Source of the DNA: Clostridia bacterium
Lineage (GTDB): Bacteria; Bacillota; Clostridia; Christensenellales; Aristaeellaceae
Length of the DNA: 35,922 bases
Assembly: GCA_030530315.1 (NCBI GenBank)
Contig: JAUMVG010000035.1
Span: 1 to 35,922 of the forward strand
Reading direction: 5' to 3'
The position numbers were made by a program, and so were the translations under genes. Positions 795 through 13,816 of this stretch are shown in pieces. Within the stretch, counting starts at the first letter, position 1. The number at the start of each line of letters is the position of its first letter. The notes beneath the pieces are model-generated. The model did not search any database and was not told the origin of the DNA. It saw only the letters and a list, made by a program, of their open reading frames with translations.

Positions 795-821
795 ATAATA
801 CATCGTTAACCTATGTATTAT
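795..821. promoter_or_regulatory. Perfect 9-bp inverted repeat upstream of the His/Cys-repeat gene
   Basis: Arms ATAATACAT (795-803) and ATGTATTAT (813-821) flank a 9-nt spacer that contains GTTAAC. The site is about 55 bp upstream of the start at 740. It is AT-rich in a GC-rich surrounding, so it could be a regulator binding site or overlap the gene's promoter; no convincing -35/-10 pair was found there. Confidence 0.45.
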
Positions 822-968
822 TCTCGCTTTGTGGTTAAAATCCTGCTTTTGCGGGGGGATTCGCGGAAAAGTGCCTCGTTTGACCCGCGCCCGCCACAGT
901 TTGACCGCTTTCAACCCGAAAAGGTTGCAAAAACTTTCACAAACAACCAAAAACAGGGTCCTGCCCCC

Positions 969-997
969 TTGATTTTTCTGCCGAAACCATATATTAT
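969..997 (+). promoter_or_regulatory. Sigma-A type promoter of the GH94 phosphorylase gene
   Basis: TTGATT (969-974), a 17-bp spacer and TATTAT (992-997) match a housekeeping promoter. Transcription would begin near 1004, leaving a leader of about 65 nt that contains the operator-like palindrome at 1026-1045. Confidence 0.6.
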
Positions 998-1025
998 TAT
1001 TATGATCTTTTATTTTTTTGCGCTG

Positions 1026-1045
1026 CGACTAAACCGTTTTAGTCG
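1026..1045. promoter_or_regulatory. LacI-family-like operator downstream of the GH94 promoter
   Basis: Arms CGACTAAA and TTTAGTCG enclose CCGT, giving a 20-bp palindrome with one mismatched pair and a central CG step, as is typical of LacI/GalR operators. It lies about 22-41 nt after the predicted transcription start, a roadblock position. Its sequence differs from the sites at 32306-32331, so a different regulator is likely. Confidence 0.5.
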
Positions 1046-1070
1046 GCGCGATTGGGAGGAGGAAGTCTCC

Positions 1071-3503
1071 ATGGAATACGGACACTTCGAGGATCTCGCC
1101 CGCGAGTACGTCATCACCCGGCCCGACACCCCCTCGCCCTGGATCAACTACCTGGGCAGCGAGGCCTTTTTCACCCTGATGAGCAACACCGGCGGCGGCT
1201 ACAGCTTCTACAAGGACGCCCGCATGCTGCGCCTCACCCGCTATCGCTACAACAACGTGCCCACCGACGCCGGCGGACAGTACTTCTACATCAACGACAA
1301 CGGCAGCGTCTGGACTCCCGGCTGGATGCCCGTGAAGGCGAAGCTGGACGGCTATGAGTGCCGCCACGGCCTGGGCTACACCCGCATCACCGGCGTGAAA
1401 GACGGCTTGAAGGCCGAGCAGCTCTCCTTCGTGCCCCGGGGCGTGAACGCCCTGGTGACCCGCGTGCGCCTGACCAACGAATCCGACGCCGCCAAGGACA
1501 TCTCCCTGTTCAGCTTCGTGGAGTTTTGCCTGTGGAACGCCCAAGACGACTCCACCAACTTCCAGCGCAACTTCTCCACCGGCGAGGTGGAGATCGAGGG
1601 CAGCGCCATTTACCACAAGACCGAATACCGCGAGCGCCGCAACCACTTCGCGGTGTACGCCGTGAACGCCGACATCGACGGCTTCGACACCGACCGTGCG
1701 TCCTTCATCGGCTACTACAACGGCTTCGGCGAGCCCCAGGTGCCCCTGGCCAACAAGAGCAACAACAGCGTGGCCAGCGGCTTCTCCCCCATCGGCAGCC
1801 ACTGGATCAGGCGCAGCCTGAAGGCCGGCGAGTCCGTCAGCCTGATCTTCGTGCTGGCCTACTGCGAAAACCCCGACGACCGGAAGTTCGTCGCGCTCAA
1901 CGTCATCAACAAGGCCCCCGCCCACGCGGTGCTGGACCAGTTCAAGACCGACGCCCAGTTCGACGCCGCCTTCGCGGAGCTGAACGCCTACTGGGCCGAG
2001 CTGCTCTCCTCCTTCCAGGTGAACAGCGGCGACGCCCGCGTGGACCGCATGGCGGGCCTGTGGAACCAGTACCAGTGCATGGTCACCTTCAACATGAGCC
2101 GCTCCGCCAGCTACTACGAGTCCGGCATCGGCCGCGGCATGGGCTTCCGCGATTCCACCCAGGACCTGCTGGGCTTCGTGCACCTGATCCCCGCCCGCGC
2201 CCGGGAGCGCATCCTGGACATCGCCGCCACCCAGTTCCCGGACGGCAGCGCCTACCACCAGTACCAGCCGCTGACCAAGCGGGGCAACAACGACATCGGC
2301 TCCGGCTTCAACGACGACCCGCTGTGGCTGATCTTCGGCGTGGCGGCCTATGTCAAGGAGACCGGCGACACCTCCATCCTGAGGGAAATGGTGCCCTTCG
2401 ACAACGACGAGAAGCTGGCCCAGCCGCTGATGGAGCACCTGCGCCGCAGCTTCCACTACACGCTGGAGCACCGCGGCCCCCACGGCCTGCCGCTGATCGG
2501 CCGCGCCGACTGGAACGACTGCCTGAACCTGAACTGCTTCTCCAGCACCCCCGGCGAGAGCTTCCAGACCACCGAGAACAACGAATCCGGCGCGGCGGAG
2601 TCCACCTTCATCGCCGGCATGTTCACCGGCGTCTGCCCGGACTACGAAGTCCTCTGCCGCCTGTACGGCTGGACGGAGGAGGCCGAACAGGTCTCCGGCT
2701 GGTATGACGAGATGGAAAAGGCCATCCTGACCCACGGCTGGGACGGCGAGTGGTTCCTGCGCGCCTATGACGCCCATGGCGACAAGGTGGGCAGCCACGA
2801 GTGCGAGGAGGGCAAGATCTACATCGAGCCCCAGGGCTTCATCGTCATGGGCGGCGTCGGTGTCAAGGAGGGCTATGCCCAGAAGGCGCTGGATTCCGTC
2901 AACAGGCACCTGCTCAGCGAGCACGGCGTGGCCATCCTCACCCCGCCCTACACCCGCTATCACCTGGAGCTGGGCGAGATCAGCTCCTATCCGCCGGGAT
3001 ACAAGGAGAACGGCGGCATCTTCTGCCACAACAACCCCTGGATCGCGCTGGCCCAGGCGCGCCTGGGCCACGGCGGCGCGGCCTTCGACATCTACCGCCG
3101 CACCTGCCCCGCCTGGATCGAGGACCAGGAGCTGCACTTCACCGAGCCCTACGTGTACAGCCAGATGGTGGCCGGCCCCTACGCTCCCCACTTCGGCCAG
3201 GCCAAGAACAGCTGGCTGACCGGCACCGCGGCCTGGAGCTTCTACACCATCAGCCAGGGCATCCTGGGCGTCAAGCCGGACTACGACGGCCTGAGGATCG
3301 ACCCGTGCCTGCCCAAGGAGCTGACGGACCTGCGCCTGGTGCGCAAGTTCCGCGGCAGCACCTACAACATCCACATCGTCAACAGAGCCGGCGACGAGAA
3401 GGGCAAGCTGACCCTGACCGTGGACGGCGCGGCCGTCGAGGGCGGCGTCATTCCCGCCGACGCGGCGTCCGCGACCCACGAGGTCGAGGCCGTGCTGGCG
3501 TAA
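1071..3503 (+). CDS. GH94 glycoside phosphorylase, probably cellobiose phosphorylase
   Basis: This 810-residue protein has no signal peptide and should act in the cytosol, splitting a beta-glucoside such as cellobiose with phosphate to give glucose 1-phosphate and glucose. Length and layout fit GH94: an N-terminal beta-sandwich (roughly residues 1-300), a helical linker, and an alpha/alpha barrel. Barrel signatures include GRGMGFRDSTQDLLG, YHQYQPLTKRGNNDIGSG and NDDPLWL; Asp415/416 in the last motif should include the general acid. The ATG at 1071 follows GGGAGGAGG. An in-frame extension to 813 would cross the promoter and is rejected. The gene is alone on its strand and ends at a long hairpin. 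Cellodextrin or other GH94 specificity cannot be excluded from sequence alone. Confidence 0.88.
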   Translation: MEYGHFEDLAREYVITRPDTPSPWINYLGSEAFFTLMSNTGGGYSFYKDARMLRLTRYRYNNVPTDAGGQYFYINDNGSVWTPGWMPVKAKLDGYECRHGLGYTRITGVKDGLKAEQLSFVPRGVNALVTRVRLTNESDAAKDISLFSFVEFCLWNAQDDSTNFQRNFSTGEVEIEGSAIYHKTEYRERRNHFAVYAVNADIDGFDTDRASFIGYYNGFGEPQVPLANKSNNSVASGFSPIGSHWIRRSLKAGESVSLIFVLAYCENPDDRKFVALNVINKAPAHAVLDQFKTDAQFDAAFAELNAYWAELLSSFQVNSGDARVDRMAGLWNQYQCMVTFNMSRSASYYESGIGRGMGFRDSTQDLLGFVHLIPARARERILDIAATQFPDGSAYHQYQPLTKRGNNDIGSGFNDDPLWLIFGVAAYVKETGDTSILREMVPFDNDEKLAQPLMEHLRRSFHYTLEHRGPHGLPLIGRADWNDCLNLNCFSSTPGESFQTTENNESGAAESTFIAGMFTGVCPDYEVLCRLYGWTEEAEQVSGWYDEMEKAILTHGWDGEWFLRAYDAHGDKVGSHECEEGKIYIEPQGFIVMGGVGVKEGYAQKALDSVNRHLLSEHGVAILTPPYTRYHLELGEISSYPPGYKENGGIFCHNNPWIALAQARLGHGGAAFDIYRRTCPAWIEDQELHFTEPYVYSQMVAGPYAPHFGQAKNSWLTGTAAWSFYTISQGILGVKPDYDGLRIDPCLPKELTDLRLVRKFRGSTYNIHIVNRAGDEKGKLTLTVDGAAVEGGVIPADAASATHEVEAVLA

Positions 3504-4883: not shown

Positions 4884-5963
4884 TCAGTCGATCATGTCCG
4901 CGGGCACATAGCCCCGGCTGTTGCGCTGCTCGCCGTCGTCATAGAATTCGACGAACGCGAACTCCCCGTCGTACTCCAGCAGCGTGACGGACTCGCCGGC
5001 GTTCAGCCAGAAGCGCTCGGCGGCGGCCCAGTCCGGCGCGGCGTAGATGGTGCCGGACCAGTTCGCCCGGACGCGGGTCCTCAAGTGATCCGCCCAGGGG
5101 ATGTCCCCCTGCACCGTCATGCGCTTCAGGCCCGTGTAACCGCGGCACAGGCGTCCGTCCTCCCAGTATTCGATCAGCACCCAGGTGACGCCGTTGCCCT
5201 TTTCGTACTCCAGCGCGGTGATCCGGGTGGACTGGGGCATGTGGCCCAGCCACACGCTGTACCGGTCCGGGCAGCCCCGAAGCGCCAGGCGCTGGTTCGG
5301 CACGGCCGGGACGCCCTCGATGACGTCGTACCCCGCGCCGTCGTCCAGCCAGAAGCCGCCGACGCCGCCGAGCATGCCGCTCTCGCCGTACTCCCCGTCG
5401 TCATCGTCGCCGTACTGCTCGCTGCCGTAGCCGCCCAGCATGCCGCTCTCGCCGTACAGGCCGTCGTCCAGCGCCCAGTCGAATATGTAGCCCCGACTGT
5501 CCGCACGGTTGTCCCGATCGTAGAATTCGATGTAGGCGTAGCCGTTCTCGTAGCCCAGCACCGTCACCGCGTCGTCCTCTGACAATTTAGCCCGCCAGGC
5601 CCCCTTCTCCGAGGGCGCGGCGTACACCGTGCAGTCCTCCGCCACAGAGGCGCTCTGCCAGAGGTGGTCCGCCCAGGGAATGCTGCCGTTCACCGCCATG
5701 CGCTTCAGGCCTGTGTAGCCGCGATAGAGCTTCCCGCCGCTCTCGTACTCCACCAGCACCCAGGTGACATCGTTGCCCTCCTCATACTCATGGGCGATGA
5801 TCCGGGTGGACTGGGGCATCATGTCCAGCCACGCATAGCGGGTGTTCGGACCCGTCCTCAGGGCCAGGTCCTGATTGGGCGAGGCGCTCACGCCCGCCAT
5901 CGCGCCGACGGCGGACAGCGCAAGCATCAGCGCGCACACCCAGGCCAGTATTTTCCTCTTCAT
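4884..5963 (-). CDS. Exported protein with two copies of an SH3-like module
   Basis: The ATG at 5961-5963 follows AGGAGG at 7 nt and starts a signal peptide (MKRKILAWVCALMLALSAVGAMA). The mature part has two homologous units of about 135 residues, each starting PNQ-x-LALR and containing MPQSTRI, GNxVTWVLxEY, RGYTGLKRM, IPWADHL, a xxIYAAP-like strand and EFYD...SRGY. This pattern resembles bacterial SH3-like (SH3b) modules that bind cell wall or protein ligands. The units are joined by a Gly/Asp-rich linker in which YGESGMLGG occurs twice. No catalytic motif was recognised. It follows the lamin-tail gene after 174 bp and may form part of the envelope cluster. Product 359 residues. Confidence 0.75.
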   Translation of the reverse strand: MKRKILAWVCALMLALSAVGAMAGVSASPNQDLALRTGPNTRYAWLDMMPQSTRIIAHEYEEGNDVTWVLVEYESGGKLYRGYTGLKRMAVNGSIPWADHLWQSASVAEDCTVYAAPSEKGAWRAKLSEDDAVTVLGYENGYAYIEFYDRDNRADSRGYIFDWALDDGLYGESGMLGGYGSEQYGDDDDGEYGESGMLGGVGGFWLDDGAGYDVIEGVPAVPNQRLALRGCPDRYSVWLGHMPQSTRITALEYEKGNGVTWVLIEYWEDGRLCRGYTGLKRMTVQGDIPWADHLRTRVRANWSGTIYAAPDWAAAERFWLNAGESVTLLEYDGEFAFVEFYDDGEQRNSRGYVPADMID

Positions 5964-6137
5964 GCGGATTCCTCCTCTCGCGGGAGCTCTGCCCCCTCTT
6001 TCCAATCCTTGGACGGCACAGCCCCGTCTCGGGTTGCAGCTTTGGAGGAAATCTTTGGCTTTTATGATAACCCAAAGGGGCCGCCCATTCGCGATCACGA
6101 TCGGTCGCTTCAAGGCAGCCCCTTCATTCATCATCCG

Positions 6138-7409
6138 TCAGGCGGTGGGCGTTCCCACGCTCCAGCTGCCGTCCGTGCCGCGAATGTAGGCGGCGTCGGT
6201 CCTCAGCAGGTCGTAGGTCGCAGTATCCACCGGCTGGCCGTTGGCGTTGCTCAGCGTGACGGTCTCGCCTTCGCTGCTCAGCCGGAAGCCGGTGTGCAGG
6301 TGGGCCGGGTTGTCCAGGCGGTTCATGCCGGAGCAGTGCACCAGCAGGGTGCCGCCCGCGGGCACCACCACGCCGCTGGGGAACTTCCACAGGCGGGGCA
6401 GCTGCGGGTTGTCCGACAGATACCAGCCGCTGATGTCCACGTCGGCGCCGGAGGTGTTGCGCAGCAGCACGTAATCCTGGGCCACGCCGTTCTCGTCCAG
6501 CCCGTACTGGGTGCTGGAGGCCACGATCTCGGCCAGCTGCACGTTGGCGGACTGCACCACGCTGGTCATGGCCTGGTAGTTCTCATCGGTGTTCAGAAGG
6601 CCCGGCGTGGTCCGCGTGTCCTTGGCCCAGCTGTTGCGGTCCCGGCGCACATAGGCTTCGTTCTCCGCCAGCGCGGGGATGTTCACCGTATCCACAGCCA
6701 CGTCCGCCGTGTTGAACAGCATCAGCACGTCGCCGCCGGAGGACAGGCGGAAGGGCGCGTGCAGCTCCTCTCCCAGCTCCGCGTGGAGGGTGCTGTCGGC
6801 GTAGACGATGGCGCATTCGCCGGCCTGGAGAATCACATCCGGGAACACGAACACGTTGCCCGCCTTGGCGCTCTTGGCCAGTATGTAGCCCTGGAGGTTG
6901 ACGGGCCGGTTGCCGACGTTGGCCACCTCGATCCAGTCGGGCGTGGCGCCGTTGGCATCCACCAGCACGCCGCCGTTGGCGCTCATGATCTCGTTCAGGC
7001 GCACCGGGCCCTCGCCGTGGATCTCCGAAACCTGGGCGGCCACGGGCCGCTCGGCCTTGTCCTGGGTCCCGCCGAGGCTGAAGCCGCCGGGCATCAGGCC
7101 CTGGAGCACCAGTCCCAGCGCGATGATCGCCACGCATACGCCCAGCAGGGGCACAAAGCCCCGGGGCAGCCTGCCGCCGCTCGCGCCCTGGGGCGCGGCC
7201 TTCGGCCGCGGATTCGCCGCCGGACGCGGCGCCTGGGCCGCGGGCCTCTGCGCGGGACGCGGACCTGCCGCGGGGCGCTGGCCGGAATAGGCCCTGTTCC
7301 CCGTGGGCGCCGCGGTGCGCTGCGCCGGGCGGCTGTCGTTCAGGCTTCCAAACCGGCTGGGCTGCCCGCCGCTCGACTGCGGGCGCACCGGCCTGTTGTT
7401 ATCGGTCAA
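6138..7409 (-). CDS. Membrane-anchored protein with two lamin-tail (LTD) domains
   Basis: The product of about 423 residues has a Pro/Arg/Ala-rich, probably cytoplasmic N-terminus (1-80), one membrane helix (about 84-104) and an outside part with two LTD-like beta domains, near residues 136-255 (VRLNEIMSANGG, DWIEVANVGNRPVNLQGY) and 295-415 (VQLAEIVASSTQ, YVLLRNTSGADVDISGWYLSD). LTD domains are known as immunoglobulin-like modules in extracellular and CotH-associated proteins. I chose the TTG at 7407-7409 because GGGAG sits 8 nt upstream; the in-frame TTG at 7424 lacks such a site. It follows the DUF4956 gene closely and shares its domain type and topology with the CotH protein, which suggests they work together at the surface. 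Confidence 0.8.
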   Translation of the reverse strand: MTDNNRPVRPQSSGGQPSRFGSLNDSRPAQRTAAPTGNRAYSGQRPAAGPRPAQRPAAQAPRPAANPRPKAAPQGASGGRLPRGFVPLLGVCVAIIALGLVLQGLMPGGFSLGGTQDKAERPVAAQVSEIHGEGPVRLNEIMSANGGVLVDANGATPDWIEVANVGNRPVNLQGYILAKSAKAGNVFVFPDVILQAGECAIVYADSTLHAELGEELHAPFRLSSGGDVLMLFNTADVAVDTVNIPALAENEAYVRRDRNSWAKDTRTTPGLLNTDENYQAMTSVVQSANVQLAEIVASSTQYGLDENGVAQDYVLLRNTSGADVDISGWYLSDNPQLPRLWKFPSGVVVPAGGTLLVHCSGMNRLDNPAHLHTGFRLSSEGETVTLSNANGQPVDTATYDLLRTDAAYIRGTDGSWSVGTPTA

Positions 7410-7446
7410 GAGGATCACTCCCAATTATCAGATGTCACCGGTTGGA

Positions 7447-8106
7447 TCAGACGGCCTCGCCCTGATAGGAGACCAGGGTCGCGTCGTAGACGCCGGGCAC
7501 GCCGCGCAGCTTGTTCAGCAGGGCGTCGGGCTTGTCCACGCGCACCTCATAGGTGGCCTCGATGCCGTTGCCGGTGACGGTCTTGCTCTTCAGCTGCTGC
7601 ACCTTCAGGCCGTTGACCAGCTGGTTGGCCTGGCGCTCAGCCTCTTCGCCCATGCGGATGACCAGCAGGTAGCTGTTGATGCCCTTGGACTGGATGTGCA
7701 CCAGCAGGGTCAGCAGCAGGCCGATGCCCACCACCGCGCAGGCGGTCAGGAAGAACTGGCCCGCGCCCAGCAGGATGCCCATGGTCAGCGCCCAGAACAT
7801 GTAGGCGGTGTCCAGCGGATCCTTCACGGCAGTGCGGAAGCGAACGATGGACAGCGCGCCAACCATGCCCATGGAGAGCTGGATGGACTCGCGGATACAC
7901 ATGACCACCGGGCAGGTGATCAGCGTCATCATCACCAGGGTCAGCGTGAAGTTATTGGAGTACATCACGCCGCGGTAGTTGCGCCGGTAGATCCACGCGA
8001 TGAACAGGCCCGCCGCCAGCGCGAGCACCAGGGAGAGCAGGATCGTGGGAAAGGACGCGGGGGTGATGGTCTGTGAGCTGAAGAGATTGGCAAAGATGCT
8101 GTTCAT
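7447..8106 (-). CDS. DUF4956-family membrane protein
   Basis: This 219-residue protein has hydrophobic segments at about 20-40, 53-71 and 101-137, the last probably two passes or one long hairpin. The conserved segment MGMVGALSIVRFR...KDPLDTAYMFWALTMGI is the signature I associate with DUF4956. The C-terminal 80 residues are soluble and may fold as a small alpha/beta domain. Genes of this family are commonly found beside VTC-type polyphosphate polymerases. Because yeast VTC pairs a catalytic domain with small membrane subunits, a role as membrane partner or channel for polyphosphate is plausible but is inference. ATG at 8104-8106 has AGGAGG 10 nt upstream. It lies 66 bp after the VTC gene. 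Confidence 0.85.
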   Translation of the reverse strand: MNSIFANLFSSQTITPASFPTILLSLVLALAAGLFIAWIYRRNYRGVMYSNNFTLTLVMMTLITCPVVMCIRESIQLSMGMVGALSIVRFRTAVKDPLDTAYMFWALTMGILLGAGQFFLTACAVVGIGLLLTLLVHIQSKGINSYLLVIRMGEEAERQANQLVNGLKVQQLKSKTVTGNGIEATYEVRVDKPDALLNKLRGVPGVYDATLVSYQGEAV

Positions 8107-8172
8107 GGGCTTTCTTCCTCCTGTTGATCTGAATGTATATCAGGGATAGTCTATCCAAAGGTCACATTGCGC

Positions 8173-8880
8173 TTATGCCAGGGGCTCGTAGCGCCGGCAG
8201 AGTATGTACTTGGACACGGCGCTGCGCTCCGCCTCGGTGCCGCTGAGCAGGGCGGCGATGTAGTCCGGCAGGTAGTTGTTGAACTTGACCTCCAGGATCT
8301 CCACGTTGCGGTCGTGGGGGCAGACGGTGGGCAGGTTCGGGTTGAACAGGTCCCGGCTGAACAGCCCGGACCGCAGGCTCAGGTCGAAGGTGATCCGCAC
8401 GTCCTCCGCCGGGTGCAGGTAGGCCTCCCGGGCGTACTCCACGATCACCCTGGGCCGCAGCAGCCGCGTGCGCATCTGCACGTACATGTCCTGCAGCAGC
8501 GCGTTGGAGGACTTGTGCAGACCCGCCGGGTTGCCCTCGATCAGCTGGTCGCACAGCCGCCGGGTGATCTGCACGGAGGACTTCTGGATCAAATCGCCCA
8601 GCTTGCGCTTGCGCTCCAGAAAGATCTCCTTGTCCGAGTAGCGGTAGATGCGGATGCGGTACTTGTCGCGGTGCATCACGCCCGACTGCTTGTCGTAGAA
8701 GGCGGAATCCTCTATGTCGTCAAAGTACAGCGACCGTATGACGTAGGGCTTGCCGCCCACGCAGTGGCTGTCCAGGGTCAGCGCGCCGCGAAGCCGCGCC
8801 CGCAGGGCCTCCAGCTCCGCCGGATTGATGAAGTACTTCAATTCATGCCGGGCGGGCAGGCCGTTTCTCTTCTGCTGCAT
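8173..8880 (-). CDS. VTC-domain polyphosphate polymerase
   Basis: A soluble 235-residue protein that is almost entirely one VTC domain, the tunnel-shaped fold that in yeast Vtc4 builds polyphosphate from ATP. The tunnel motifs are present in order: RHELKYF (11-17), RSLYFDD (49-55), KYRIRIYR (73-80), FLERKRK (87-93), VEYAREAY (147-154), VRITFD (161-166), LEVKFNNYLP (196-205) and SKY (223-225). The basic and acidic residues expected in an active enzyme are therefore kept. No membrane segment is seen, so the catalytic part should be cytosolic. The ATG at 8878-8880 has AGAGGG 6 nt upstream; a TTG two codons earlier would abut that site. The gene lies between CotH and DUF4956 genes, a recurrent neighbourhood in clostridia. 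Confidence 0.88.
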   Translation of the reverse strand: MQQKRNGLPARHELKYFINPAELEALRARLRGALTLDSHCVGGKPYVIRSLYFDDIEDSAFYDKQSGVMHRDKYRIRIYRYSDKEIFLERKRKLGDLIQKSSVQITRRLCDQLIEGNPAGLHKSSNALLQDMYVQMRTRLLRPRVIVEYAREAYLHPAEDVRITFDLSLRSGLFSRDLFNPNLPTVCPHDRNVEILEVKFNNYLPDYIAALLSGTEAERSAVSKYILCRRYEPLA

Positions 8881-8948
8881 ACTCAACCCTCTCTATAATA
8901 GCCGATGTCCGCGCCGACCCGGGCCGAGGCCCGAATGGCAAAGCGGGA

Positions 8949-11900
8949 TCACGACGGTTTCTTGATGTCCTCGTAGCTCACGCCCACCTGCGCCATCACC
9001 GCGCCGAAGTACTGCTCCATCTGGGCCTTTGAAAGCGGCAGATAGTCGTTGTACTTGATGAACTGGAGCATGCGTCCCGGGCGCGACTGCGCGTAGCGGA
9101 TGAACCTGCGCACCTCCGACTTGTGCTCGGATTCGGTGAAGTCCCACCGCGCGTAGTGGTCCGGCATCAGCGGCTCGATGGCGTTGTAGAACTCCTCGGC
9201 CATCTTCGTGATGTTGTCGGCGCTGTAGGTGGTCGCCATCTGCTCGCCCAGATAGGTGAGGAACCGGTCGCAGAAGGTCGGGTTCTTCATGCAGGCGATG
9301 AACAGCGTGTTGTCGGTGCGATTCTTGTTGCCCATGCCGCCCGGCGTCAGCCAGCGCTTGGGGGAATTGGTGTCGGTGTAGAAGGCCCAGTCCAGGTCAA
9401 ACAGCACCCAGCGCCACTTGCCGTCCGTCTTGGGGTTCCGGTAGCGCTTCACGTTCAGGGTGTCCGTGTTGCCGGTGTACATCTCCACCGCCATGTATTC
9501 GATGTAGTTCTGCACGTCGATGGCGCTGTCGATGACGTTCCAGGCCTCCTCGGTCTTCATGTCGTGGCTCTTGACCCAATCCAGCAGCTGCACCATGGTG
9601 TCGTTGGAGCCCTGCATCACGTTGGTGTTGGCCTTGATCAGGTCCAGGTCGTCCTCATCGCCCTCCCAGCCCTCGAACTGGCAGATGTTGGCGGTGTTGA
9701 TGCGCTCGCGCAGGTTGTAGTGGCCCCAGTACTGGCCGTCGATGTACAGCACGCCGATCTCGGTCTCCTGGTAGTCCACGTGGCCGCCCTCCGCCAGCCG
9801 CTGCAGCAGCGCGTCGCGGAAGCGGGTCTTGTAGCCGTCCTCACTGGAGGAGCGCAGCAGGAAGGACTGGTAGTCCGGATAGGGCCTGTGGGAGAATAAC
9901 GCCGCGTTGAAGCGGTTCGCGCCGTACTTGCTGCGGGCGATCACCTTGAAGGCCTTCTGCTTCTCGGCGCGGCTGTACTGGCCGTGCAGCTTGATGCCGC
10001 ACTCCTGGGAGATCATCGTGCTGCCGTCGGGATTGAACACCTCGACGTGGGCCTCGCGCTCCCAGTCCATCCAGAAGTTGGCGCCCTTGTTCATGGAGCC
10101 GTAGGGGTAGTTCGGCAGGGCGTTGGGGCCCTTGACCATGATGCCCGCCTCGTCGCTGGTGAGGTTGTAGGGATCGCTCACCAGGGAGACCACGAACACG
10201 GTGCCTCCCCCGTTGTTCACGTCGTACAGGTAGCTCTGGGTGTCCATGAAGGACTCCAGGTAGCCCTCGCCGTAGACCCGCGTGCGCAGGATCGTCGTTC
10301 CCGTGACGGTGATCGGCCCGGTGTAGAGCGTGGAGCTCTCGGTGGGGTCGGTGTAGTCCAGCGTGTAGTAGACGCGGCAACCGGAGGGCACGGACAGCTC
10401 CACGGACAGCGTGTCGCCGGTTTTGTACAGCCCGCCCAGCGTGGAGTAGATGGGCCTCGGCGCGCGGCCGTAGTAGCTGGAGCTGTCGTTGGGCGACCCG
10501 GGGGTCACCGTGGTGAAGTAGCGCACCGCGTTCTGGGTTTCCATGCGGCCGAAGGAGATGTCCTCGTACTGCATGGGCACGAACAGCCGGTCGATGATGT
10601 GCCCGTTGGGCTCGGAGAGCACCACAGAATAGCCGCCGTCGGCGGACAGGTTGTAGTTGGTCTGGATGCGGTCCGCCGTGGAGGTGTTCAGCCCGTTGGC
10701 GAACACGCCCAGGTACTGGCCCGGCTGGATGACCGTGCCGGAGGGGAACTGCCACTTCCGGGGCCGGCCCGCGTTGTCGGACAGGCCGTAGCCGGAGAGG
10801 TCCACCGCCTCGGCGGAGTTGTTGTGCAGCTCGATCCAGTCGTCGGACTTGGAGGAGGAGGCCAGCACCTCGGTGATGGTGACGCCCTTCGTGTTCGCGC
10901 TGTCGATGCTGCTCGCGGCGGCGTCCGCCCCCTCGGGGGTGTTGGCGTAGTTCGGAGACGGCGAGAACTGCTTGGTCCAGCCGGTCTCCAGCAGCGAATA
11001 GGCCTGGTCCGGCTCCATCACCGGGGTCTTCACGTAGCTCACCGTGGCCCCGTCCGGGTCGGTCAGGAACACATTATCGCCCTTGTTGGAAATCTTGAAA
11101 TTGGCGTGCAGGTGACCCTCCACCGAGCCGCTCTTGCCGGAGCAGTGCACGGCCAGGTAGCCGCCCGCGGGCAGCGTCACCGAGGGGAAGCGCCACCGCA
11201 TCAGCTTGTCTGAGCGGTCGGACAGATACCAGCCCTCCAGGTTCACGGCGGAGGCGGAGGTATTGTGGATCTCCACGTAGTCCGGGCAGGCCCCGGTCTC
11301 ATCCGGGAAGAAGGTGGCGTTGTCCGCCATCACCTCGCTGATCTCCAGCGGCCCCTGCTGCACGACGATGGGGCGCTCCTCGCCCTCCGTGCCGCTGAAG
11401 CGCTCCACGCGGTTCGCCTGGCCCGGGGTGGGATAGTCGCTGATCTGCCACGCGCCGGAGGCATCCCGGCAGTAGGCCTGGTCCCTGGCCAGGGACGGGA
11501 GCTCCACCAGGTCCACCCCGTCGCCCCGCTTGTCCAGCAGCGCCAGGTTCTCGCCGGAGGCGGGCAGCGCGAAGGGGGCGTGATAGCCGTCCTCCTGGAT
11601 CTCCTGTCCGCTGCCGTCGGCGTAGACCACCACGTACTCGCCGGGCTGGAGCACGCCGCTGGGGAAGGCGAAGGCCTGGGCGGGCTTGGTCTCCCGCATC
11701 AGGGCGTAGCCCGTCAGGTCCACCGGCTTTGAGGAAGTGTTCTGCAGCTCGATCCAGTCCACGATCCCTCCCGCGTTGCCCACGCGGGTGGAAGCGTTCG
11801 CGGTCATGACCTCGCTGATGCGCAGCCCGGAGGCCTCCTGGACGGCGGCGCGGGTGGCGCTGCCGGAGAGGGGGCTGTTCTGCGCGAGATAGGTGACCAG

Positions 11901-12005
11901 TATGGCGACGGCTCCCACCAGCGCGATGAGCGCGGGGGCCGGGCCCAGGGGCCTGGGCCGACGCCAGATGATCTTCTTATTCTTATTTGAGGATTGCTTT
12001 GCCAC
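8949..12005 (-). CDS. Membrane-anchored CotH-type kinase with three lamin-tail domains
   Basis: A 1018-residue protein. A basic N-terminus and one membrane helix (about 21-41) place the rest outside. Three LTD domains begin near residues 61 (LRISEVMTAN), 220 (LEISEVMADN) and 376 (VTITEVLASS). Residues about 517-592 resemble the chitobiase/hexosaminidase C-terminal beta module (RPIYSTLGG...VYYTLDYTDPT). Residues about 640-985 form a CotH kinase domain with GIKLHGQYSRAEKQKAFKV, LRSSSEDGYKTRFRDALLQRL, GVLYIDGQYWGHYNLRERI and VLFDLDWAF, the last likely a metal-binding acidic motif. CotH of Bacillus is an atypical kinase of spore-coat proteins; here the context suggests envelope phosphorylation, not coat. 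The start is GTG at 12003-12005 with GGAGG 7 nt upstream. First gene after the promoter near 12100. Confidence 0.87.
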   Translation of the reverse strand: MAKQSSNKNKKIIWRRPRPLGPAPALIALVGAVAILVTYLAQNSPLSGSATRAAVQEASGLRISEVMTANASTRVGNAGGIVDWIELQNTSSKPVDLTGYALMRETKPAQAFAFPSGVLQPGEYVVVYADGSGQEIQEDGYHAPFALPASGENLALLDKRGDGVDLVELPSLARDQAYCRDASGAWQISDYPTPGQANRVERFSGTEGEERPIVVQQGPLEISEVMADNATFFPDETGACPDYVEIHNTSASAVNLEGWYLSDRSDKLMRWRFPSVTLPAGGYLAVHCSGKSGSVEGHLHANFKISNKGDNVFLTDPDGATVSYVKTPVMEPDQAYSLLETGWTKQFSPSPNYANTPEGADAAASSIDSANTKGVTITEVLASSSKSDDWIELHNNSAEAVDLSGYGLSDNAGRPRKWQFPSGTVIQPGQYLGVFANGLNTSTADRIQTNYNLSADGGYSVVLSEPNGHIIDRLFVPMQYEDISFGRMETQNAVRYFTTVTPGSPNDSSSYYGRAPRPIYSTLGGLYKTGDTLSVELSVPSGCRVYYTLDYTDPTESSTLYTGPITVTGTTILRTRVYGEGYLESFMDTQSYLYDVNNGGGTVFVVSLVSDPYNLTSDEAGIMVKGPNALPNYPYGSMNKGANFWMDWEREAHVEVFNPDGSTMISQECGIKLHGQYSRAEKQKAFKVIARSKYGANRFNAALFSHRPYPDYQSFLLRSSSEDGYKTRFRDALLQRLAEGGHVDYQETEIGVLYIDGQYWGHYNLRERINTANICQFEGWEGDEDDLDLIKANTNVMQGSNDTMVQLLDWVKSHDMKTEEAWNVIDSAIDVQNYIEYMAVEMYTGNTDTLNVKRYRNPKTDGKWRWVLFDLDWAFYTDTNSPKRWLTPGGMGNKNRTDNTLFIACMKNPTFCDRFLTYLGEQMATTYSADNITKMAEEFYNAIEPLMPDHYARWDFTESEHKSEVRRFIRYAQSRPGRMLQFIKYNDYLPLSKAQMEQYFGAVMAQVGVSYEDIKKPS

Positions 12006-12079
12006 TCAGCTGCCTCCGTACATGCTCTTCGGGGTTCAGTTGTGCCAATACCTTATCCATATTATAATACACTTTATAT

Positions 12080-12108
12080 ATTATAATATGATGGCGACAA
12101 TCCAACAA
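12080..12108 (-). promoter_or_regulatory. Promoter of the CotH-VTC-DUF4956 cluster
   Basis: On the minus strand TTGTTG (12103-12108), a 17-bp spacer and TATAAT (12080-12085) form a sigma-A type promoter about 75 bp before the GTG start. A second TATAAT at 12061-12066 lies downstream within AT-rich palindromic sequence and may be a second -10 or a binding site. Confidence 0.55.
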
Positions 12109-12132: not shown

Positions 12133-13767
12133 TCACCTGCGGCGACGGCGGCGGCGATGGCCCAGCGTCCTGTAGGCGTACCAGCCGCCCACGCCCACCG
12201 TAGCCACGCCCGCGACGATCATGCCCACCGCCAGCGCGGCGCTGCCGCCGGAGGACTCGTTGGCAGGTCGAGGCGCGGGGGTGACCGTCGGCTGGGGCGT
12301 CTCCATGGCCGGGTCAGGCGCCTCGGAGGCAGCGGGCTGTTCCGCAGAAGCCGCTTCGGCAAGCTCCACGGCGGGCTGTTCCCCGCCGTCCTGCCCGGGC
12401 TCGTCGTCGTGCGCGACGGCAAACACGTCCTCCCCGTCGTCGGCTTCGACGACCACGGCGGCCCCGTCTACGTCCGGCGCGTCGCCCTGCCCGGCATCCT
12501 CGTCCTCATCCTCGGGCACCTCGGGCACGTCCTCCCAGAGCTCCGCCAGCTCCCGCACGCCGTGCTCCGCCAGGTAGTCCGCGGAGGCGTTGGGGGCGAT
12601 GTGCTCCAGGAAGTCGTTCTTGGCCACGTCCTCGCCCACGGTGGTGAAGTACAGGCCGAACTTGGAGTTGTCATAGGTGCCGTGGTTTTTGACGGCGTAA
12701 TACTTCAGCTGGGAAGCATGCTCGTTCATGCCGATCTGGGCCACCTTCAGCGGGCTGTAGCCGTTCAGGCTGTCCAGCTTGGTCTCCCAGTCCATCTGGA
12801 TCTGGTTCTTCTTGTACAGGTGGTGGTAGAGCTTCTTCACCTGCCACTCGCCGTACTTCTCCTGGGATTCTGGGTACTGCGCGGGGTCCGCCGCAGCCTC
12901 GATGGCGTACATCATCGCCCGGGCGGTGATCTTGTGCTGGATGTGGCCGTATTCGCCGTCCAGGTCCTGGGTGACGATGACCTCCGGCTTGTAGCGGCGG
13001 ATGCGCTCCACCAGCGCGGACAGGATGTTGTCCTTGCCGCCCCACAGGGCGATGCCCTTATTGATGCTCTCGACCTTCTTGTCCTGGAAGTTGATGAACT
13101 CCGGGTAGGTCCTTACGCCCATCACCCACAGCGCGTTCAGCGCCTCGTTGCGGCGATAGCGGGAGCAGTTGGTCATGTAGACCACGATGGTGGGCTTCTT
13201 CAGCGCCGTGGCGTAATAGGGAATCGTGCCGCCCAGGAAGATCAGCTCGTCGTCCTGGTGGGTGGAGACCACCATCAGGTCGGCCTTCTCCACGGGCCGT
13301 TCCCACACCTGGACCTCCTTGGGCAGGTCTCCCGCGGAATATACCCGCATGTTGCCGATCTGCTGGTTCTTCGCCGTCATCTTCAGCTGGAGGTAGGAGG
13401 TCTCCGGCAGCAGCTCCAGCATGGTGTAGATGTTGGGGAAGGTGCAGGTCTGGTCCCGGGTGCGCAGCTCGTTCAGGTCGGCGTCGTACTCAATCAGCTC
13501 GAAGCCCTTGGGGTCGTAGAGCCACTCGATGCGCAGCCAGCCCGCCCGTGCGTCCTTCGGCAGGTGGATGCCCACATAGGCGTCGGCCCGGCTGTACTTC
13601 CACAAGGACCGGATGTTCTTGTCGTACAGGTTTCCCCGGTCGCCCTCGGACACCTTGAACTTGCACTTCGACGTGATGTCCGCGGCCTCCTCCGCCAGCG
13701 CGCACCCCGCCGCAAACGCGGCGCACAGGCACAGCGCGACGATCAGCCGCACGATCATCCTCTTCAT
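12133..13767 (-). CDS. Secreted, C-terminally anchored PIG-L (LmbE-like) deacetylase
   Basis: The 544-residue product starts at ATG 13765-13767 with GGAGG upstream and has a signal peptide (about 1-25). An N-terminal beta domain (about 30-150) precedes a PIG-L/LmbE domain with the metal motif THQDDE (169-174; the family usually has HPDDE or similar) and GHIQH (274-278). Such enzymes remove acetyl groups from N-acetylated sugars using zinc, so a cell-wall or glycan substrate is plausible. A long Asp/Glu- then Ala/Pro-rich tail follows (about 420-510), then a membrane helix (about 513-535) and a tail of consecutive arginines, a sortase-independent stop-transfer anchor. It lies 49 bp after hemW and just upstream of the CotH promoter. 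Confidence 0.82.
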   Translation of the reverse strand: MKRMIVRLIVALCLCAAFAAGCALAEEAADITSKCKFKVSEGDRGNLYDKNIRSLWKYSRADAYVGIHLPKDARAGWLRIEWLYDPKGFELIEYDADLNELRTRDQTCTFPNIYTMLELLPETSYLQLKMTAKNQQIGNMRVYSAGDLPKEVQVWERPVEKADLMVVSTHQDDELIFLGGTIPYYATALKKPTIVVYMTNCSRYRRNEALNALWVMGVRTYPEFINFQDKKVESINKGIALWGGKDNILSALVERIRRYKPEVIVTQDLDGEYGHIQHKITARAMMYAIEAAADPAQYPESQEKYGEWQVKKLYHHLYKKNQIQMDWETKLDSLNGYSPLKVAQIGMNEHASQLKYYAVKNHGTYDNSKFGLYFTTVGEDVAKNDFLEHIAPNASADYLAEHGVRELAELWEDVPEVPEDEDEDAGQGDAPDVDGAAVVVEADDGEDVFAVAHDDEPGQDGGEQPAVELAEAASAEQPAASEAPDPAMETPQPTVTPAPRPANESSGGSAALAVGMIVAGVATVGVGGWYAYRTLGHRRRRRRR

Positions 13768-13816
13768 TCTTTCGCCTCCAGGTTTCCGCCCGCCCCGCGC
13801 GGGCAAGGCTTGTCTC

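Follow-up and report, generated by a model that had tools for sequence, protein, structure and literature searches.

The locus studied here raises the question of whether four consecutive genes, encoding a CotH kinase-like protein, a VTC protein, a DUF4956 membrane protein and an anchored protein with LTD domains, act as one system, and what such a system would do for a kinase-like domain predicted to lie outside the cytosol. The source of ATP for the CotH kinase is itself named as an unanswered question in the literature (PMC7821199). The window, that is, the whole stretch of 35,922 nucleotides analysed, makes up one of the 144 contigs of a draft genome (3.58 Mb, 94% complete) whose closest named relatives found were uncultured Clostridia of the rumen and gut. 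An ORF and Pfam check recovered all four genes, with the domains that an earlier note on this DNA had named, including LTD domains on both anchored proteins; the intergenic gaps within the set measure about 20–70 bases (Table 1).

Table 1. Features of the four-gene locus and of neighbouring parts of the window.
Feature	Position	Strand	Evidence
GH94-family protein, 896 aa, catalytic and supersandwich domains full	813..3503	+	Pfam
Exported SH3_3-match protein adjoining the LTD gene	4884..6134	-	Pfam
Anchored LTD protein, 428 aa, TTG start, two LTD stretches	6138..7424	-	Pfam LTD E 1.2e-30
DUF4956 membrane protein, 219 aa	7447..8106	-	Pfam 2.6e-11
VTC protein, 237 aa from TTG	8173..8886	-	Pfam 1.9e-39, 136.1 bits vs cut-off 23
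CotH kinase-like protein, 1018 aa, GTG start, three LTD stretches	8949..12005	-	Pfam CotH 8.4e-38, 131.1 bits vs cut-off 23.8; LTD 7.1e-60
Possible cotH-operon promoter: AT-rich stretch with TATTATAAT-like motifs, between PIG-L gene and cotH	12036..12092	-	Sequence
PIG-L deacetylase-like protein; N-terminal hydrophobic segment, C-terminal transmembrane segment, arginine-rich tail	12133..13806	-	Pfam

The set is preceded by genes for the PIG-L protein and HemW and followed by genes for the SH3_3 protein and a NUDIX protein (Pfam). The PIG-L gene is present at 10 of the 12 congener loci compared, and relatives of the SH3_3 protein turned up at only one locus besides the window, L182; both genes were rejected as fixed members, being mostly confined to the genus. 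The LTD-only gene, present at 11 of the 12 congener loci and at few loci beyond the genus, was rejected as a core member because it is lineage-specific. Most of the 12 congener upstream stretches carry AT-rich motifs resembling, by eye, those of the possible promoter; a consensus promoter scan of the window found no promoter, and tRNA and Rfam scans of the window returned zero matches.

The VTC protein probably starts at the ATG at 8880 (235 aa), where its congeners begin, and is soluble and without an anchor according to hydropathy. Single-sequence PDB searches with the VTC and CotH proteins found nothing, but profiles did match. A profile of 27 VTC proteins retrieved yeast Vtc4 at 4.6e-18, and Vtc2 and Vtc3 at 5.4e-9 and 1.4e-8 at best. 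Residues K17, R77, R79, E91, K93, Y151, R153 and R164 of the window protein align with K200, R264, R266, E279, K281, Y359, R361 and R373 of Vtc4, respectively, tunnel residues that we take to be catalytic. All eight are identical in the window protein, and each is invariant among 134 VTC proteins of 200–330 aa from the collected loci, a set that contains some duplicates (e.g., L105 and L193) and leaves out proteins beyond these length limits. The claim that the protein has all tunnel motifs thus held for every Vtc4-equivalent residue examined. Four further residues, E199, K201, S225 and K226, lie C-terminally, outside the Vtc4 alignment, and we assume that they match Vtc4 sites.

Because of this likeness to Vtc4, the likely chemistry is the formation of polyphosphate from ATP at the membrane, and polyphosphate synthesis by the VTC protein is probable. 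VTC is a member of the triphosphate tunnel enzymes, a group with diverse chemistry. This variety would favour a product other than long polyphosphate, such as a short phosphate chain, a pyrophosphorylated lipid or a signal nucleotide, which DUF4956 would carry or sense; we consider such a product rather improbable, given that the profile ranks Vtc4 well above Vtc2 and Vtc3 and that the Vtc4-equivalent residues are invariant in both of the VTC lineages described below. The yeast VTC complex (Vtc4, PDB 3g3q, 8i6v) shares with the bacterial proteins the tunnel-domain likeness, the eight residues and a soluble catalytic domain working with membrane helices. Unlike its yeast counterpart, the bacterial VTC protein has neither an SPX domain (Pfam) nor a membrane helix, and the PDB search with DUF4956 gave no match to the membrane subunits of the yeast complex.

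Hydropathy analysis of the DUF4956 protein, which the earlier note had called multi-helix, revealed three clear hydrophobic segments (residues 21–39, 53–71 and 110–128). Its match to the MgtC Pfam model over residues 27–139 (15.5 bits, E 0.024) falls below the cut-off of 31.4 bits, and a distant kinship with MgtC may exist. A search of the PDB with a DUF4956 profile gave no match, even at E 10. With no PDB match and a likeness to MgtC that is weak if anything, a channel role is a guess; passage of polyphosphate through DUF4956 is conceivable, with a chance that we place somewhat short of even.

The CotH protein consists of an anchor (residues 23–41), three LTD domains, a CHB_HEX/Fn3-type domain and a C-terminal CotH domain (residues 671–976). 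Hydropathy assigns a single N-terminal anchor both to this protein and to the LTD protein (residues 89–107), and basic residues precede the anchors. This arrangement implies that the CotH and LTD domains would lie outside the membrane, and classifies CotH as the predicted exported type rather than facing the cytosol, as had been proposed. A profile of the CotH domain matched spore coat protein H (5jd9) at 3.7e-8. Of the 108 sequences, 105 retain E767, 107 retain D848 and all 108 retain D870, with K684 (94) and D872 (84) less constant. The kinase-like domain and the conserved acidic residues are shared with the Bacillus spore-coat CotH (5jd9; PMC7821199), whereas the CotH proteins of Bacillus size that were fetched are short forms lacking an export segment and occur mostly without VTC, in contrast to the LTD-fused CotH of the window, which is predicted to be exported.

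Among the 12 congener loci, identity to the window is 83–99% for VTC, 87–100% for DUF4956, 67–97% for CotH and 58–97% for the LTD protein (n = 11), and a VTC orthologue of at least 83% identity was present in each of the 24 congeners searched. In the best 80 named relatives, the locus contains CotH with LTD in 60 cases, CotH without LTD in seven and no CotH in 13, some of the latter at contig ends. Loci that we selected by hand comprised 40 from the class and two further sets of 20. In two relatives (locus L043 and genome G224), the VTC match is interrupted by one in-frame TGA. The suggested scaffolding by LTD domains would be specific to this lineage. The host genome encodes one VTC, one DUF4956, one PPK1 and, on a contig other than the window, one Cthe_2159 protein. 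Against this single VTC-DUF4956 pair stand three LTD-CotH proteins of about 960–1020 residues; the 18 kb fetched around the two LTD-CotH genes on other contigs contained no VTC or DUF4956 match. One pair may therefore serve several exported proteins.

We counted the gene families in a sample of 196 genomes of the class, with DUF4956 and PelG taken above the cut-off where stated; two DUF4956 genomes and one PelG genome lay under it and were dropped before counting. The sample contains VTC in 101 genomes, DUF4956 in 100 (98 over the cut-off), PelG in 11 (10 over the cut-off), PPK1 in 68 and, among the matches listed, CotH in 80 and Cthe_2159 in 77. DUF4956 over the cut-off is present in 98 of the 101 VTC genomes vs none of the 95 without VTC. 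The two genes sit side by side in the same orientation at 117 of 127 VTC places, with DUF4956 downstream at 116 and upstream at one; six of the other ten places are partial VTC matches. For 54 of the 127 places, in 46 genomes, a CotH gene on the same strand is located no more than 5 kb away (among the matches listed), and six CotH genomes of the sample are without VTC. In the control genomes, VTC and DUF4956 occur in the same three of 14, each with CotH or Cthe_2159; matches to VTC, DUF4956 and CotH all turned up in Corynebacterium glutamicum. That the association exceeds chance is well supported. These counts bear out the earlier note's view of the genes as one system; the recurrence in clostridia that it mentioned applies to the families of CotH, VTC and DUF4956, which co-occur widely, but not to the lineage-specific LTD-only gene. 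Some genomes (G019, G028, G042, G051 and G174) carry two or three VTC-DUF4956 sets, partly with different partners.

PPK1 was found in 43 of the 101 VTC genomes vs 25 of the 95 others. VTC as a stand-in for PPK1 was rejected, as there is no mutual exclusion and PPK1 is present in the host genome, where polyphosphate therefore does not require VTC. That the pair is no stand-in for PPK1 also speaks for a VTC product other than long polyphosphate.

When CotH is absent, the neighbour of the pair is often an exported β-helix protein of the Cthe_2159 family (PF14262), named by Pfam in eight of eight proteins scanned. This family, which is not kinase-like, replaces CotH at VTC-DUF4956 places: among the matches listed, CotH lies beside 54 of the 127 VTC places and Cthe_2159 beside 33, with no place having both and at most 40 having neither. 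Again among the matches listed, CotH or Cthe_2159 occurs somewhere in 98 of the 101 VTC genomes vs 12 of the 95 others; 29 of the VTC genomes have only CotH, 24 only Cthe_2159 and 45 both. Clustering of the neighbours at 140 loci singled out Cthe_2159, among the matches listed, as the family most clearly tied to a constant nearby position; the other clustered neighbours were genus neighbours, had varied positions or represented one 10-locus case about 6 kb away. A quick tree of 77 VTC proteins, with long branches, separated a group with mostly Cthe_2159 or no partner from a group with mostly CotH. The distance between the Cthe_2159-partner and CotH lineages on this tree again favours the alternative of another VTC product, although the invariant Vtc4-equivalent residues noted above span both. 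A few CotH partners, LTD-CotH included, are nested within the first group, which probably reflects partner switching. The coupled system thus comprises an inner pair, VTC and DUF4956, and an exported partner, either CotH or Cthe_2159.

Should exported CotH be what the pair serves, VTC would be expected to be missing from genomes with short CotH only. This prediction was fixed once CotH had been searched but before VTC was, with long CotH defined as a frame of at least 450 aa. The phylum sample of 378 genomes contained CotH in 60, VTC in 71 and both in 54, with VTC but no CotH in 17. In the classes other than that of the window, VTC was present in 45 of 47 long-CotH genomes vs one of five short-CotH-only genomes (52 CotH genomes). 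As for the exceptions, the match in G377 is below the cut-off and has an internal stop; in G537, CotH stops at a contig end, so that genes beyond it would be missing; and G291 has a short CotH and a VTC that adjoins Cthe_2159. An N-terminal hydrophobic segment was present in all ten long CotH proteins fetched vs none of the eight short ones. The B. subtilis control genome has CotH and no VTC; from this and from their size, we infer that the short forms are of the spore-coat type. That exported CotH is nearly always accompanied by VTC-DUF4956 in the sampled genomes suggests that the pair supplies something that the exported protein requires.

Neighbours without any joint function, their counts reflecting common descent, would offer another account, since near relatives inflate such counts and the Fisher tests on co-occurrence ignore kinship, with no full phylogenetic correction. 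We regard this account as very improbable. The association holds by genus, with CotH or Cthe_2159 in 71 of 73 genera with VTC vs nine of 61 without (among the matches listed), and in the other classes, with VTC in 46 of 52 CotH genomes vs 13 of 307 without CotH. Furthermore, gene order varies (CotH before or after; VTC-DUF4956 or DUF4956-VTC; most commonly CotH-DUF4956-VTC and CotH-VTC-DUF4956) while contact is kept, and the type of partner changes along the VTC tree.

CotH, a polyphosphate polymerase and DUF4956 have been described together as accessory genes of the Pel operon, contiguous with pel in streptococci and clostridia (PMC7112168), so as an accessory set of Pel the core trio has been published before. 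The remark that no joint function had been described is therefore partly outdated; no polyphosphate measurement on these proteins was found in the literature consulted. According to PMC12345266, deletion of the S. intermedius CotH gene SIR_1594 lowers Pel and deletion of SIR_1592 raises it, and in sputum medium either deletion cuts aggregation to less than half. SIR_1592 is a four-TM protein with an ACT domain, called MgtC/ACT in that paper; its position suggests that it is the DUF4956 protein. In these Gram-positive pel accessory genes (PMC7112168; SIR_1594 to SIR_1592, PMC12345266), as in the window, the same three families are contiguous, and CotH is secreted.

These reports favour a role of the set in regulating or modifying surface polysaccharide. 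An MgtC/ACT-like DUF4956 would sense and control VTC, and CotH would phosphorylate secretion or matrix components, with Pel the best-known client and other surface polymers taking its place elsewhere. The binding of cellulose and polygalacturonic acid by Cthe_2159 proteins (PMC6712302) points the same way, as does PelG at a distance of no more than 10 kb from five of the 54 CotH-VTC places (among the matches listed). At least in the class sample, the three-gene unit at those five places is the same as the CotH-VTC-DUF4956 unit elsewhere. However, no PelG over the cut-off was found in 39 of the 46 genomes with CotH beside VTC (among the CotH matches listed), nor did a search of the whole draft host genome (94% complete) return a PelG match. 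The set is thus common outside Pel loci, whereas the authors of PMC12345266 report failing to find synteny of CotH, the polymerase and DUF4956 there. No other polysaccharide family emerged as a general neighbour among the matches listed in the clustering of 140 loci, and the available text of PMC12345266 does not name the deletion of SIR_1593 (the polyphosphate polymerase, VTC) among those reducing aggregation. We judge the polysaccharide role unlikely, at about one chance in four. The window itself differs from the pel accessory module in that it is not contiguous with pelDEADAFG (PelG being the Pel gene searched), its CotH has three LTD domains, an LTD anchor gene lies next to it and no DUF4832 was found among the ten proteins scanned.

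Building on the observed genetic coupling, partner alternation, export segments and conserved residues, our preferred reading, to which we give a probability of roughly 0.42, is that VTC and DUF4956 make up a core of two proteins at the inner membrane face, serving exported surface proteins by means of polyphosphate. In the cytosol, VTC would most likely build polyphosphate from the terminal phosphates of ATP molecules, DUF4956 would hold the polyphosphate at the membrane and pass or gate the chain outward, and the exported partner, whether a kinase-like CotH or a Cthe_2159 β-helix protein, would use or bind the product outside. In the host genome, the exported side would comprise the three LTD-CotH proteins and the LTD anchor protein, served by the one pair. 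Counting against this core reading, up to 40 of the 127 VTC places have neither partner nearby (among the matches listed). The six CotH genomes of the class sample that are without VTC, the PPK1 of the host genome and the absence of the S. intermedius VTC deletion from those reported to reduce aggregation weigh the same way.

The accompaniment of exported CotH by VTC-DUF4956 fits a supply of phosphate to kinases outside the cell. Use of polyphosphate by CotH is nonetheless doubtful, and the narrower scheme, in which exported CotH is powered by VTC-made polyphosphate let out via DUF4956 and the short CotH inside needs no pair, is less likely still. Since 24 of the 101 VTC genomes have Cthe_2159 but no CotH (among the matches listed), the pair cannot in general be there to feed CotH; for its overall role, polyphosphate acting as a ligand at the surface, or some different shared service, is no less likely. 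If the pair does feed polyphosphate to exported kinases or surface binders, this would explain the phosphate source of a kinase outside the cytosol and would amount to a membrane-coupled bacterial polyphosphate route beside PPK1; the regular company of exported CotH with VTC-DUF4956 would unite three poorly understood families in one system.

As far as our literature searches show, the wide non-Pel occurrence, the alternation with Cthe_2159, the company of exported CotH with VTC-DUF4956 and the LTD-CotH variant are new. No paper joining Cthe_2159 with VTC or DUF4956 was found in the open-licence literature, searched under separate terms. A locus that resembles the window by its description is C. 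perfringens NELoc-2 (CP4_0460 to CP4_0465; PMC2879425), where the VTC genes each precede a gene for a membrane protein about as large as DUF4956, with the annotation tubulin/FtsZ, and CotH adjoins; it differs in having two VTC-membrane protein pairs around a resolvase. CotH and Cthe_2159 domains are also both among 40 reported as unique to anaerobic rumen fungi (PMC6712302); in the genomes studied here, these two families take turns beside the VTC-DUF4956 pair.
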